Assembly (NCBI GenBank): GCA_903918885.1
Contig: CAIXFY010000049.1
Location: 1 to 37,614 of the forward strand
Direction of reading: 5' to 3'
Origin: an uncultured Verrucomicrobia subdivision 3 bacterium
GTDB lineage: Bacteria; Verrucomicrobiota; Verrucomicrobiia; Limisphaerales; UBA11358
Length of the DNA: 37,614 nt
A program made the translations under genes and the position numbers. The notes under the pieces were generated by a model. That model did not search any database and was not told where the DNA came from. It saw only the letters and a program-made list of their open reading frames with translations. Numbering within the stretch: position 1 is the first letter of the stretch; every line of letters begins with the position of its first letter. Below are positions 3,537-37,614 of the stretch, piece by piece.

Positions 3537-6254
3537 TTACGGAATCACCGCCCGATAGAAACGCTGGCTGGAATTCGTCGCCGCCGGGTCGCAGAAGGTG
3601 ATTGAAGAATTCGTCCCCACAAAATTTGTCAGCGTAGCCCAGCTTGTCAGGTTCGTTGAAACTTGGATGTGTCCGTTTAAGCCGGTGGACAATTGCAGGT
3701 TGAAGACCAGCCCGTTGGTTTTCATCGGCTGCGCGTTGGTGAAGACCAGTTGCAGTGCGAAGGTGTTGCTCGATACAAAACTGACGCTGTTGGTGAGCGA
3801 GAAATTCCCGCCCAAATCCAGCGCGTAGGCTTTTAGCGAATTAGTGCCAATCACGAGCGTCAACAAGGGCGTTGTCCAATTGGTGAAGCTATTGGTCGTC
3901 GCGGCAAGGCTCCAAGTGCCGTTATTCAACTGATACCAAATATTGGTGACACGCCAGTTATCGCTCGCCGTGCCAAGCCCTGTCGCCAAGGCATTGGTCA
4001 TCTTCTGATTGGCGGTGGGCAAAGTGATGGTGAGCGTTGGCTTGGTCACATCCAAAAAGTTCGCCTGCAAGGTCAGGTTGGATTGCATCATGAAAGGCAG
4101 GTTGGTGCCAGTCACGGTCACGCCGCTAATCCAGTTCGTCGAAACTTGCCAGTTGGTGAACACAAAGCCGCTGGCCGGAGCCGAGGTGATGCTGTAATTC
4201 CGGCCAATCTCCAACCACGCATTGCTGTAATTCGGCGAAACGGTTCCCTTGCCAGTGATGCTGACTTGCAGTTGATTGGTCACGACATATTGAAAATTCA
4301 CGCTGTTGGTCACTGAAACATTGCCGGTGGAATCGGTGGCATAAGCGGCAAAGGCATTTGTCCCCGGCGTCAGGGTTAGAGGCGCTGACCAATTGGTTGT
4401 GCCAGTCGCGTTGCCCCAACTTCCGCCATTTAGCTGATACTGCACACCAGCCACCTGCCAGTTGTCTGTTGCCGTTCCTTTGACCGTGAATACGGCGTTA
4501 CTCAACCGCTGCCCAGCCACCAAGTTCGTGATGCTGAAAGTCGGCTTGTTCGTATCAATAAAATTGGCGGTGAATGTGAGGTTGGAAGCCATCGTGAAAT
4601 TCAAAGCTGCCGTGTTGGTTATCAGGCTACCCGTCCAGTTGGTGAATCTAAATCCGGCTGCCGGGGCGGAGGTGATGCTGTAATTGCGGCCAATTTCCAG
4701 CCACGCATTGCTGTAGTTTGGTGAAATCGTCCCCAAGCCAGTCACAGATATTTGCAATTGATTGGTCACGACATATTGGAAGCTCACGCTGTTGGTTGCT
4801 GAAACATTGCCAGTGGTATCGGTGGCATAAGCGGCAAAGGCATTTGTCCCCGGCATCAAGGTCACAGGTGCTGACCAATTGGCTGTGCCGGTCGCGTTAC
4901 TCCAGCTTCCCCCGTTCAACCGATACTGCACACCCGCAACCTGCAAGTTGTCCGTTGCAGTTCCCTTCACAGTAAACACGGCGTTGCTCACGCGCTGGCC
5001 AGCCACCAAGTTCGTGATGCTGAAAGTCGGTTTGTTGGTATCAATGAAGTTGGCCGTGAAAGTTAGGTTTGAAGCCATTACAAATTGAACCGTGGCGTTG
5101 TTTGTCACCACGCTACCCGTCCAATTAACAAAGGCAAAGCCAGAGCTAGGTGTTGCCGTCATGCTGTAGGTTTTACCGACTTCTAATAACTGACCATTGT
5201 AGTTTGGCGAAATTGAACCATTGCCATTGGTCTGCACGCTTGCCACTGCGGCAATAACATAAACCATATTCTGGCTGGCGATGGCGGATGAGTTGCCGCT
5301 CGAATCGACTGAATAGGCTTGAATGACATTGGTTCCAGTTGTTGATAGAGAAATGTTTCCCGCCCAATTGGTCCAGCCGTTTGAAGTCGTCGCTAAATTC
5401 CAACCTTGTCCAAAAATCTGGTAATATACTGCTGAAACTTGGATGTCATCACTAGCTGTCCCTGTGACGGTAAAAACGGAATTGCTCCATCTTTGTCCAC
5501 CCGTCGGAGAAACAATTGTGATGGTTGGCGGAGTGGTGTCTAGCTGCGTGAAATTGCCTACTTGATACCCGCCCGATGATGCTTGAGTCGCAGCAAAGCC
5601 TCCATGTAGCGCATCTGAAAAGCCAAAATAGGCTACAAACGATCCAACTAGACTGCTGCTGAACTGTAATTTACCGGTGCTTCGATTTGCTAATGAGTAT
5701 GAATAAGTCCCTGAATCTCCAGTCGAAGTCGTGTATGTATTTCCAGATGACGCCGTGGTAATCGTGTATGAACCACTTGAATAAAATGGATACAGACCAT
5801 TCACAATCGAACAAGCAAAGGTTTTTCCGGAGACTGAACTAGGCGCATTATACGATGCAAAACTGAATTGCCCCGATTGATACGCGCTAGGATACGCATT
5901 AACAACCGTATTAAAAGTGCCTGAATTTGCTGTGGAAAAAGTCAAATAAAGGGCACCCGGACCGCCCAAAGAATCATTAACGGCGACTGTAGCTGCAGAA
6001 GAGCTTGTTGGCGTATAGGAATATGTGCCAGTGCTGCTGTCAACATTGTAGATTCCGATTAGTTGATAACTATTCCCACTGTTGGCAGGGAGGAAAATGG
6101 AATACCCGTAGCCTGCTAATGGATATGTCCCTGTAATAATTCCAGCCAAGCAACCGTCCCCGGCTATTGAACTTGGGGCTTGTGCAAACGCTGAATTGAA
6201 TTGTGCAAGCACACCGAGTAACCCGCTTATGATAATTCCAATTTTTATTTTCAT
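3537..6254 (-). CDS. secreted repeat protein with Ig-like and InlB-B-like modules
   Basis: A 905-residue exported protein of unknown target. Residues 1-25 form a signal peptide ending in Ala-Phe-Ala-Gln. An N-terminal region rich in Ser, Tyr, Thr and Gly (about 26-235) precedes four Ig-like modules (PT.ITxVxGQ...TVxGTATDN...GTNxxxAYAxDxxGN), which alternate with three Flg_new_2/InlB-B-type repeats (GxGTxSPNYSNAWLEIGRNYSIT, then FxNWTGS, ending LTFTANF). The last about 60 residues carry the signature found in other secreted proteins of this window (STNLTSW...RFYRAVIP). No catalytic motif is seen, so an adhesin or surface-binding role is inferred. The gene looks more AT-rich than its neighbours, especially its 5' third (about 5400-6250). 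A nested inverted repeat lies 44 nt upstream of its start. Confidence 0.85.
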   Translation of the reverse strand: MKIKIGIIISGLLGVLAQFNSAFAQAPSSIAGDGCLAGIITGTYPLAGYGYSIFLPANSGNSYQLIGIYNVDSSTGTYSYTPTSSSAATVAVNDSLGGPGALYLTFSTANSGTFNTVVNAYPSAYQSGQFSFASYNAPSSVSGKTFACSIVNGLYPFYSSGSYTITTASSGNTYTTSTGDSGTYSYSLANRSTGKLQFSSSLVGSFVAYFGFSDALHGGFAATQASSGGYQVGNFTQLDTTPPTITIVSPTGGQRWSNSVFTVTGTASDDIQVSAVYYQIFGQGWNLATTSNGWTNWAGNISLSTTGTNVIQAYSVDSSGNSSAIASQNMVYVIAAVASVQTNGNGSISPNYNGQLLEVGKTYSMTATPSSGFAFVNWTGSVVTNNATVQFVMASNLTFTANFIDTNKPTFSITNLVAGQRVSNAVFTVKGTATDNLQVAGVQYRLNGGSWSNATGTANWSAPVTLMPGTNAFAAYATDTTGNVSATNSVSFQYVVTNQLQISVTGLGTISPNYSNAWLEIGRNYSITSAPAAGFRFTNWTGSLITNTAALNFTMASNLTFTANFIDTNKPTFSITNLVAGQRLSNAVFTVKGTATDNWQVAGVQYQLNGGSWGNATGTTNWSAPLTLTPGTNAFAAYATDSTGNVSVTNSVNFQYVVTNQLQVSITGKGTVSPNYSNAWLEIGRNYSITSAPASGFVFTNWQVSTNWISGVTVTGTNLPFMMQSNLTLQANFLDVTKPTLTITLPTANQKMTNALATGLGTASDNWRVTNIWYQLNNGTWSLAATTNSFTNWTTPLLTLVIGTNSLKAYALDLGGNFSLTNSVSFVSSNTFALQLVFTNAQPMKTNGLVFNLQLSTGLNGHIQVSTNLTSWATLTNFVGTNSSITFCDPAATNSSQRFYRAVIP
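4060..5031 (-). repeat. two tandem units of about 486 bp inside the repeat-protein gene
   Basis: Two adjacent units of about 162 codons, each beginning NKPTFSITNLVAGQR and ending FTANFIDT, are nearly the same at DNA level. For example, CAAGTTCGTGATGCTGAAAG occurs at 4521 and again at 5007, 486 bp apart. Differences are scattered, many at third positions, which suggests an older duplication now under purifying selection. Confidence 0.8.
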
Positions 6255-6604: not shown

Positions 6605-7300
6605 CTAGCCGTTGACGAGGACGCGGAGGACGGGGCCGAAGGCGAGCGTGGCCTTGTCGGCGTCCCACCAGCAGGCGCGGTAGTCCCGCCATTCGGCCTG
6701 ACCGGCGGTTTTCACGGGGCGGTTGTCCACATAGGGGCTGCCGGTATCGGTGGCGAGAAAGCTGAAGGCGCTTTCCCCCTGCCGCTGGCTTTCCAGCCAG
6801 ATGCCGTCGTGTTCGTAGAGGTTGAAGTCCAGTTCCACGCTGTTCTGCGCCACCGGGCCGGCGGTGAGGATGGGCGGATCGGCGTGGGTGACGGCTCCGG
6901 CGCCGATGATGCCGAGGTTCTGGCCGATGGTGTCGGTGTAGCCTTCGGCGCTTTTCCACCGGGCGATTTCGGCAAAGAGCCAGTTGAGCATTCCGAAATA
7001 CGGGGTGCTCGCCGGGGGCGTGAGCACGGCGGGCAACGGCGGCGCGGTATCGGTGGTGGCGTCGCTGGTGCCGGTGGCGAGGTTGTTGCGCCAGGCGGTG
7101 GCGGCGGGGGCGTCCTGCCGGCGGGCGGGCAGATAGACCTGCCAGCCCCAGATGAGCCAGTCGAGGGTGAGGGTGAGCTTGGCCTGCCGAGCGGGGCTGA
7201 TGTCCAGCGCGGTGTAGTAGGCGGGAACCTTGGACTTGATGTTGGTGAACCAGAGGGCTTGGTCGCCTTCGCGGTTCGGGTAGTATGGTTGATTTGGCAT
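6605..7300 (-). CDS. conserved-looking hypothetical protein, 231 aa, Trp-rich
   Basis: I do not recognise a named family. The chain starts MPNQPYYPNREGDQALWF and has no signal peptide or membrane helix. The first 70 residues are predicted helical (KLTLTLDWLIWGWQVY), followed by a Thr/Pro-rich linker at about 85-105, then a second helical part (YFGMLNWLFAEIARW). The C-terminal part looks beta-rich: ELDFNLYEHDGIWLESQRQG and a final EWRDYRACWWDADKATLAFGPVLRV, which resembles the last strands of an Fn3-like fold. A codon-periodic pattern and a good terminator support it as a real gene. It is monocistronic. Its upstream region is the 21-nt phased repeat. Function unknown. Confidence 0.75.
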   Translation of the reverse strand: MPNQPYYPNREGDQALWFTNIKSKVPAYYTALDISPARQAKLTLTLDWLIWGWQVYLPARRQDAPAATAWRNNLATGTSDATTDTAPPLPAVLTPPASTPYFGMLNWLFAEIARWKSAEGYTDTIGQNLGIIGAGAVTHADPPILTAGPVAQNSVELDFNLYEHDGIWLESQRQGESAFSFLATDTGSPYVDNRPVKTAGQAEWRDYRACWWDADKATLAFGPVLRVLVNG

Positions 7301-7447
7301 ATATGCTTTTTTCTTTCTGGAGGGGCGTGGTTACATGGTTTTCAGGTGTCCCTCCGGCCCTGAAAAGCGTTGAAAGCGGGAAAAACGGTGTTTTGGAGCG
7401 AAAACGGGGGAAACGCGGCTTTTCCCCGGTTTTCCAAGGTAAATGGG

Positions 7448-7470
7448 AGGTTATTTGTCGCAAATAACCT
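7448..7470. repeat. perfect 10-bp inverted repeat at the edge of the tandem array
   Basis: AGGTTATTTG, TCG, CAAATAACCT. The right arm is the core of the first 21-nt unit, so the array starts with one inverted copy of its own core. A further imperfect pair, GAAAACGGGGGAAA against TTTTCCCCGGTTTTC, spans 7400-7434. Confidence 0.75.
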
Positions 7471-7690
7471 TGAATCCGGGGCGAAAAACCCCGTGTCCGC
7501 CGCAAAAACCCCGGAGTCTGGGGCGGATAACCTTGGGTCTGGGTCAGCCAACCGCGAACGGCGGGCGAATAACCTTGGGTCAACGGCGGATAACCCGGAG
7601 TGCGGCGAAAACAACCTTGGCGGCGGGACAAAAAACCTATTGCGCGGGACGGACAACCTTGAGTCCGCGCGGGAGAACCCGGAGTCGTTT
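7462..7690. repeat. eleven degenerate 21-nt tandem repeats, exactly phased
   Basis: The core AACC recurs at 7466, 7487, 7507, 7529, 7550, 7571, 7592, 7613, 7634, 7655 and 7676, that is every 21 nt with a single 20/22 compensation. The fuller core reads ATAACCTTGGGTCTG followed by a GGCG-like end. Units have diverged in sequence but not in spacing. 21 bp equals seven codons and also two helical turns. The array lies 162-390 bp upstream of the start of the 231-aa gene on the minus strand and 160 bp upstream of the small ORF at 7851. Confidence 0.85.
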
Positions 7691-7735: not shown

Positions 7736-7760
7736 GGGTAGGACATTGGCTGTCCTACCC
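7736..7760. repeat. REP-like palindrome
   Basis: GGGTAGGACA and TGTCCTACCC form a perfect 10-bp stem with loop TTGGC. No T-run follows on the plus strand and only a short A-run on that side, so a REP-like extragenic palindrome is preferred to a terminator. No RAYT transposase is in the window. Confidence 0.6.
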
Positions 7761-7850: not shown

Positions 7851-8081
7851 GTGAAAACACCGTTTGTCAACGTCGAGGAAAAGATTGACCGCTTTGTCGG
7901 GCGCACCGGCGTGGCGGACAGCCTGCGGGCGGGAATGCAATTGCAGGCCACGGCGGCGCAGTTGCATAAAAGTTTCGGCCATCGCTGGTGGCCCAAGGGC
8001 GTTTACCGTTTCAAAACCCACGAGGAGGCTGACGCATGGATGATCAAAATGCTGGCGCAGAGCGGTCTGCCGAAAACCTGA
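7851..8081 (+). CDS. small protein upstream of and overlapping a nucleotidyltransferase; candidate antitoxin
   Basis: A 76-residue basic, helical protein starting at GTG (VKTPFVNVEEKIDRFVG). It contains the segment RFKTHEEADAWMIKML near its end and a GVADSLRAGMQLQA helix. No named family is recognised. It overlaps the next gene by 46 nt in another frame, and its HEEADA codons contain the Shine-Dalgarno sequence of that gene, so the two must be made together. Short protein first and enzyme second with an overlap is the layout of toxin-antitoxin cassettes; the function is inferred from this only. Confidence 0.7.
   Translation: MKTPFVNVEEKIDRFVGRTGVADSLRAGMQLQATAAQLHKSFGHRWWPKGVYRFKTHEEADAWMIKMLAQSGLPKT
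8022..8028 (+). promoter_or_regulatory. consensus Shine-Dalgarno inside the upstream ORF
   Basis: GAGGAGG is followed by 7 nt and the ATG at 8036. This is the only near-perfect SD I noticed at a start codon in the window, and it decides the start of the nucleotidyltransferase gene. Confidence 0.8.
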
Positions 8082-8566
8082 TCAGCCGTCCGCCCACCGA
8101 GGAGGATTTGGTCGCGCTTTGCCGCGAGCTGAACCAGCGCGGCGCAAAATACGTCGTGGTCGGCGGTCTCGCCATCATCGCCGCCGGTCTGCCCCGCGTG
8201 ACCACCGATGTGGATTTGATGGTGGCTGCCGATTCTGAAAATGAGGCGAAAGTTTTTTCCGCGCTTTCAACTTTGCCGGACAATGCCGTGCGCGAACTGC
8301 AACCCGGCGAACTTCAGCAATACAACGTCATCCGCGTGGGCGACGAGATTCTGGTGGACTTGATGGTTTCCGCCGGTGGCATCAATTATTCCGAAGCCGC
8401 AAAAAACGTGGTGGTGCGGGAACTCGGCGGTGTGCCGATCCCCTTCGCCTCGCCGCGTCTGCTCTGGCGCATGAAGGCCGTGACGCATCGCGAGAAGGAT
8501 GCGGGCGATTTGGTATTTCTCCGCCACTGGTTCGCCGAGCGCGGCGAGCAACCACCCCAAGTCTGA
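8036..8566 (+). CDS. AbiEii/DUF6036-like nucleotidyltransferase, candidate toxin
   Basis: A 176-residue member of the minimal nucleotidyltransferase superfamily. It has the motif KYVVVGGLAIIAAGLPRVTTDVDLMV: the Gly-Gly pair at 43-44 stands in for the usual GS, and Asp58/Asp60 are the metal-binding pair. The third acidic residue is probably in the strand DEILVDLMVS. The later part, LLWRMKAVTHREKDAGDLVFLRHWF, matches the C-terminal helix of AbiEii-type proteins. These enzymes transfer NMP to RNA or protein, and many are toxins paired with a small partner. The partner here would be the overlapping 76-aa protein. It ends 7 nt from the convergent upp stop. Confidence 0.8.
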   Translation: MDDQNAGAERSAENLISRPPTEEDLVALCRELNQRGAKYVVVGGLAIIAAGLPRVTTDVDLMVAADSENEAKVFSALSTLPDNAVRELQPGELQQYNVIRVGDEILVDLMVSAGGINYSEAAKNVVVRELGGVPIPFASPRLLWRMKAVTHREKDAGDLVFLRHWFAERGEQPPQV

Positions 8567-36654: not shown

Positions 36655-37614
36655 CGGCCTGACAGGATACTTTTCGCGGCGGCGCTGGCGAGTTTTTTAT
36701 GGGCGCTGGCAAAGGCGAGCGAATCAAACTCTGCCGGCGCGAGCCATCGGCCGTTCGCGTTCGCCGGTCGTTTCGCCAACGAAACGGAAAACGCCTCCAG
36801 CGTGATGCGATAGCGCGTGATGGAATGCTTCACCGTGCGCAGCGGCTGAATCGCCTTCGGTTTCGCGCCGAAATTTTTTTGGAATTCAGTTGTTGCCGTG
36901 GCGAGGGAATCGGAAGCAGACGCGTTCCCCCTCAACCGGCCTCCGGCCACCTTCTCCCCCGCTGGGGGAGAAGGACGGGATGAGGGGGCATCGGTGATTT
37001 CCACATTCGGAAATTCCCAGAGATGCGCATTCACCACGCCCGCCGGTCTTTGCTGAACCAAAAACTTGCCGTCGCACTCGATGGCGAACGCGATGAAATG
37101 CCGCGCCGTCGCTGTCTCGCGTTTGCCGAGGTTCGGCAAATCCTCCACGCGGTTTTCTTTGAATGCAACGCACAGTTTCTTCACGGGACAAATCAAACAC
37201 TGCGCATTGCGCGGCGTGCAGACCAGCGCGCCGAGTTCCATCAGCGACTGGTTGAGATGAGAGCAGCACAGTTTTGAATTTTTAATTTTTAATTTTGAAT
37301 TCAACACCAACTCTTCCGCCAGTTGCCACAGTCGCGCGTTGGTTTGTTTTTCCTTCGGATTTTCAGCGATGCCGAAGAGGCGCGTCAGGACGCGGATGAC
37401 ATTGCCGTCGAGAATCGGCGTGGGCTGGTTGAAGGCGATGCTGCAAATCGCGCCGGCGGTGTAGCGGCCGATGCCCGGCAGCGCTAAAACCTCATCAAAC
37501 TTTTCGGGAAACTTACCGCCGTGTTTTTCCACAATAACTTGCGCGGCCTTTTGCAAATTGCGGACGCGCGTGTAGTAGCCGAGTCCTTCCCAAAGCTTAT
37601 GGATTTTTTCCGAA
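36651..37614 (-). CDS. mutY: A/G-specific adenine glycosylase, N-terminal end outside window
   Basis: MutY removes adenine mispaired with 8-oxoguanine. The frame is open to the window edge and reads KLWEGLGYYTRVRNLQKAAQ, then LPGIGRYTAGAICSIAF and the catalytic Asp in PILDGNVIRVL. The 4Fe-4S ligands are Cys-x6-Cys-x2-Cys-x5-Cys (CTPRNAQCLICPVKKLC). The C-terminal NUDIX-like domain (HFIAFAIECDGKFLVQQRP...) recognises 8-oxoG. Only about the first 50-60 residues are missing. Two stretches look like in-frame insertions of intergenic repeats: NSKLKIKNSKL between the helical domain and NQSLMELGA, and SSRPSPPAGEKVAGGRLRG within the C-terminal domain. It overlaps the desulfurase start by 4 nt. Confidence 0.95.
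   Translation of the reverse strand, partial: SEKIHKLWEGLGYYTRVRNLQKAAQVIVEKHGGKFPEKFDEVLALPGIGRYTAGAICSIAFNQPTPILDGNVIRVLTRLFGIAENPKEKQTNARLWQLAEELVLNSKLKIKNSKLCCSHLNQSLMELGALVCTPRNAQCLICPVKKLCVAFKENRVEDLPNLGKRETATARHFIAFAIECDGKFLVQQRPAGVVNAHLWEFPNVEITDAPSSRPSPPAGEKVAGGRLRGNASASDSLATATTEFQKNFGAKPKAIQPLRTVKHSITRYRITLEAFSVSLAKRPANANGRWLAPAEFDSLAFASAHKKLASAAAKSILSGR
36927..36988. repeat. 62-bp palindromic repeat inserted in frame in mutY
   Basis: The inner stem CTTCTCCCCC (36951-36960) with GGGGGAGAAG (36964-36973) and the outer arms CCCCCTCA (36927-36934) with TGAGGGGG (36981-36988) form one palindrome. Elements with this CCCTCA/CTTCTCCCCC make-up are common between genes in environmental genomes; here it is translated into a Pro/Gly/Arg-rich loop. 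Confidence 0.8.
37272..37303. repeat. AT-rich AATTTTTAATTTTTAATTTTGAA insertion in mutY (partial core given)
   Basis: A 32-bp run of repeated AATTTTT/AATTTTG words in an otherwise GC-rich gene, read as NSKLKIKNSKL on the minus strand. It looks like an intergenic simple repeat captured in frame. Confidence 0.6.

Follow-up and report, generated by a model that had tools for sequence, protein, structure and literature searches.

Plasmid iterons and parC-type arrays are direct repeats of about 20 bp, two helical turns apart, and each is a single locus with one cognate protein. BIMEs, which are composed of REP palindromes and occur in enterobacteria and pseudomonads, bind gyrase and IHF (PMC2817692), and a GTAG or CGTC tag marks most REPs, which fall into sequence families (PMC3733652). 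Sequence is what normally defines a family of dispersed bacterial repeats, whereas the arrays described here appear to form a class defined by spacing, with the letters largely free.

The window is the whole stretch of 37,614 bp analysed here, from an uncultured Verrucomicrobia subdivision 3 bacterium. It contains one array of a large and apparently so far undescribed class of 21-bp arrays in uncultured lake Verrucomicrobia; no description of such arrays was found in the literature searched.

Structure of the array in the window

Stacked at 21, positions 7466–7690 of the forward strand form eleven direct 21-bp units, whose register is kept without any indel (permuted consensus TGAGTCCGGGGCGAATAACCT). 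The AACC cores start at 7466, 7487, 7507, 7529, 7550, 7571, 7592, 7613, 7634, 7655 and 7676, and the spacings of 20 and 22 come from a register ambiguity in AAAAACCCC, where the core can also be read one base earlier. Autocorrelation reaches 0.56 at lag 21, 0.55 at lag 42 and 0.53 at lag 63 (maximum of 0.43 in 2000 Markov-simulated sequences), and the longest chain of AACC at 20–22 bp has 11 members, compared with 3 in 2000 Markov simulations. The original prediction of eleven units with drifting letters and a fixed spacing of 21 nt is thus confirmed by autocorrelation, core chain and stacking. Its description of the bases between the cores as widely different holds in part: drift is present, but these bases vary loosely and not freely, because the mean identity of the units to their own consensus is 0.70. 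That the array belongs to so large a class suggests conservation of the helical spacing rather than of the exact letters.

An inverted core caps the array, as had been predicted, in the form of a hairpin at 7448–7470 (AGGTTATTTGTCGCAAATAACCT) with perfect 10-bp arms and a 3-nt loop. A further inverted unit (7428–7448, reverse strand) has its GGTT core at 7428, a full 21 bp ahead of the one at 7449, and the lattice therefore spans about 7428–7690. GGTT units at 21 bp lie on the same side in the homologous arrays of four other genomes (G002, G041, G059 and G013); caps similar to that of the window are found in the same four and in G063. The cap is conserved within the window family. A second perfect 10-bp hairpin, GGGTAGGACATTGGCTGTCCTACCC, was observed at 7736–7760, between the array and a 76-aa ORF.

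The predicted location between two divergent genes was also borne out. A 231-aa ORF (MPNQPYYP...; 6605–7300) lies on the reverse strand, and the 76-aa ORF (7851–8081), followed by a 176-aa ORF (8036–8566), on the forward strand. The family search returned no match for the first two, while the third is nucleotidyltransferase-like (DUF2204, Pfam PF09970) with a marginal score (E 3e-4; 20.8 bits at a cut-off of 20.3). No Rfam match was found within the window. Elsewhere in the window, a 905-aa ORF, in which Ig-like and InlB B-repeat domains were recognised, contains two copies of a 486-bp tandem repeat (4149–5213), and the heptamer TTTTGAA is repeated 4.3 times at 37272–37301.

Related arrays in the genus

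No fewer than five further species of the genus (Verrucomicrobia subdivision 3) have arrays related to that of the window. When 49 genomes of the genus were searched by core pattern, relatives appeared in G041 (two arrays), G059, G013 and G002, and arrays of G018 and G063 were also recognised as relatives. The array in G041:C52 (L149) adjoins the orthologue of the 231-aa ORF (73% nucleotide identity over 704 bp) and lies upstream of it, as in the window. In G059, a start-like remnant of a 231-aa-type ORF can be recognised by eye.

In G002 and G018, an array occupies one orthologous locus, ahead of a membrane-protein-like ORF. The units match one to one, and the gaps in the conserved half of the array total 21 bp, i.e. 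one unit, which indicates that unit number varies and the period is kept; this is the outcome of the comparison with related genomes that had been proposed as a check. In G063, the units of a window-family array (L181, 9241–9657) change orientation at least twice, seemingly within a single 21-bp lattice.

Period specificity and indel constraint

Across the 49 genomes, four AACC cores spaced at 21 bp gave more than 100 matches, whereas the same core, the only one used in this test, gave none at 22 bp and, one stray apart, nothing but simple repeats of 5 or 10 bp at 20 bp. A period-agnostic scan of randomly chosen stretches placed 22 of 39 intergenic periodic regions at 21, 42 or 63 bp but only one genic region at 21, with genes called by a simple home-made gene caller. 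Most arrays have unit sequences unrelated to one another and share the period. Other unit lengths in relatives, which had been named as the evidence that would speak against a kept phase, are rare: 21 dominates, and the exceptions are lags of 22 and 41 and one 1-bp slip noted by eye in L202 near 6572. The period is thus kept while the sequence changes within arrays, between orthologous loci and across unrelated arrays of the genus.

Of the 550 units in 40 arrays, 549 are in phase, and these arrays contain 3481 substitutions in 11529 bases. Because detection favours in-phase arrays, simulated arrays were passed through the same pipeline; 2% indels per substitution put about 3% of the units off phase, and when the rate was raised to 5%, just 59% of the arrays were detected. 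Observation and simulation together place the indels of the arrays below roughly 1 per 100 substitutions; in intergenic bacterial DNA the ratio is nearer 1 indel per 10 to 20 substitutions.

Array density differs among genomes (11 in 293 kb in G018, 3 in 209 kb in G016, 4 in 632 kb in the window's own genome). Array numbers vary greatly, and many genomes have no match, therefore the class is not essential.

Two other kinds of periodic arrays were noted. Arrays that have an AACC core but a period of 7 or 14 bp, such as repeated AACCGTG, occur in G060:C113, G036:C526 and G037:C20, and a historical link between heptamer arrays and the 21-bp class is possible, since 21 is three heptamers. A-rich arrays with a period of 41 or 42 are found in G029, from another family of the order (L130, 1481–1783 and 13929–14220; L131, 11570–11707).

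Dispersal of array-bearing elements

Five copies in G018 have common left and right flanks and diverged units; for one pair the left flanks are 96.5% identical over 145 bp, and two unit types are combined in one mosaic copy. L096 and L101 also share their flanks around diverged units, and L192 and L202, both from the window's own genome, have a leader in common. Shared flanks with differing units show that array-bearing elements disperse and that the units turn over faster than the flanks. Recent 42-bp duplications also occur, and array duplicates of G041 have about 10 units and 4 units. In the right flanks of L157, L159 and L161, sequence resembling GGCGGATAAAACTC, possibly a separate repeat, forms the end of the dispersed copies of the element.

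RAYT transposases are candidates for moving these elements. Two of three RAYT genes in randomly sampled stretches, a small sample, have an array within 1 kb, and one further case comes from a stretch that was chosen for its array. In the window contig, no RAYT was among the matches of the RAYT search.

The main rival to selection on the period is that the arrays form a dispersed tandem-repeat family, neutral or selfish, with a 21-bp ancestor, in which slippage and unequal exchange would copy whole units and discard odd-length ones, and a transposase would act on the flanks or the cap. It ranks first among the rivals, since the arrays are seen to move and their units to turn over, whereas selection is inferred. 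The common flanks in G018 and in L096/L101, the duplications, the RAYT genes near arrays, the patchy abundance and the random gene orientation (see below) would all be expected from such a family. However, substitutions have reached saturation in the units of unrelated arrays, and still almost no array has moved to 20, 22 or 23 bp, and array number bears no relation to RAYT copy number. This explanation has a substantial chance of being right, but we consider it on balance doubtful.

Placement relative to genes

All arrays examined (41 of 41) are intergenic. Their neighbouring genes are co-directional in 16 cases, divergent in 9 and convergent in 7, while nine could not be classed. These counts are near 2:1:1, the expectation for indifference to transcription, and therefore disfavour the view that the class acts as promoters or terminators. 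A leader motif common to all arrays was not found, and the best hairpin is terminal in 15 of 23 arrays compared with 10.9 expected, which is not significant (p 0.06).

The same data bear on the possibility that the array is a multi-site operator for its flanking genes, with a putative regulator on the AACC cores. Direct repeats two turns apart suit cooperative binding, and an operator would agree with the divergent genes of the window and with the array upstream of the G041 orthologue of the 231-aa ORF. However, unrelated genes stand beside related arrays, a glycosyltransferase-like ORF in G013 and the membrane-protein-like ORF in G002 and G018; orientation is random across the class, and no sigma-70-like promoter was seen in the window between 7200 and 8050. 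An operator is thus improbable.

RNA structure, coding potential and curvature

Structured RNA, or hairpins acting on transcripts, would explain the cap hairpin and the palindromic consensus of many arrays of the class, but RNA hairpins do not demand an exact period. As a whole, the window array folds like its shuffles on both strands (z -0.18 and -1.36), for which reason RNA structure was rejected for it, and no local covariation peak was found. Dyad symmetry is raised in the class average (0.63 vs 0.54) and absent in the window family, where unit palindromicity (0.40) falls below the shuffled mean (0.54) and the cap alone is palindromic. Covariation within units is weak and not concentrated there, so a hairpin per unit was also rejected. 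We regard an RNA function as very improbable.

A seven-residue protein repeat, the other option of the original prediction, is hardly credible and already contradicted: 21 is divisible by 3 and four of six frames are open in the window array, but none of the frames stays open throughout the seven homologous arrays, column conservation has no 3-base rhythm and 6 of 40 arrays lack any open frame.

Helical phasing of sites or bends, which had been put forward as well, is plausible. The period is kept, but the curvature predicted from wedge values is barely above shuffles: about 1.9 sd above period-preserving column shuffles for the window array, with a class mean of 0.48 +/- 0.21. Intrinsic curvature is therefore weak as a property common to the class.

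Interpretation of the 21-bp lattice

A DNA-level element phased at two turns fits best, because the period is kept, the sequence is free and the placement is indifferent to transcription. We tentatively favour, at somewhat less than an even chance, that the arrays are dispersed intergenic DNA elements whose working feature is the 21-bp lattice (two turns of B-DNA), with the sequence largely free. From the pattern of the arrays, selection acting on the double-stranded DNA appears to keep the period. The likeliest cause is a putative protein of low or co-evolving sequence specificity that would bind successive units on one face of the helix, with binding starting at the inverted cap. By analogy with gyrase and IHF on BIMEs, its role would be architectural rather than that of an operator of one gene.

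A broader and unlikely version is a system that spans the chromosome and recognises arrays by their period and not by their sequence, with a putative protein polymer, or a wrapped complex, that nucleates at the inverted cap and requires sites two turns apart. If this were true, recognition of the period would leave the unit sequences at liberty to change as long as the spacing stayed fixed. In a class defined by spacing, the conserved character would be the helical repeat itself, and similarity-based repeat searches would have overlooked such a class. It would also supply numerous natural replicates with which to study what senses spacing in a cell.

Comparison with known systems

The arrays resemble iterons and parC-type arrays in having direct repeats of about 20 bp at two-turn spacing, but they occur at many chromosomal loci with unrelated units. 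The window array has no replication or partition gene alongside; its neighbours are the 231-aa ORF and the DUF2204-like ORF. CRISPR arrays combine near-identical repeats with unique spacers, whereas the window array has a 4-bp core in 21-bp units of 70% identity. A coding heptad repeat would keep one open frame in the homologues, which is not the case here.

With BIMEs, the arrays share a dispersed intergenic location, short units and, in some cases, a nearby RAYT transposase gene. They differ in that each array has its own unit and an exact 21-bp period. Neither a GTAG nor a CGTC tag of the REP type is found around the cap (7440–7480), and the window unit, less palindromic than its shuffles, is unlike the palindromic 20–40 bp unit of REPs and BIMEs. 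Whole-unit changes in intergenic DNA also characterise the tandem repeats of freshwater Planctomycetota (PMC9426551) as well as VNTRs and minisatellites. The parts of the Planctomycetota account considered here report no fixed period, whereas in the present arrays 21 bp recurs across unrelated arrays and species.
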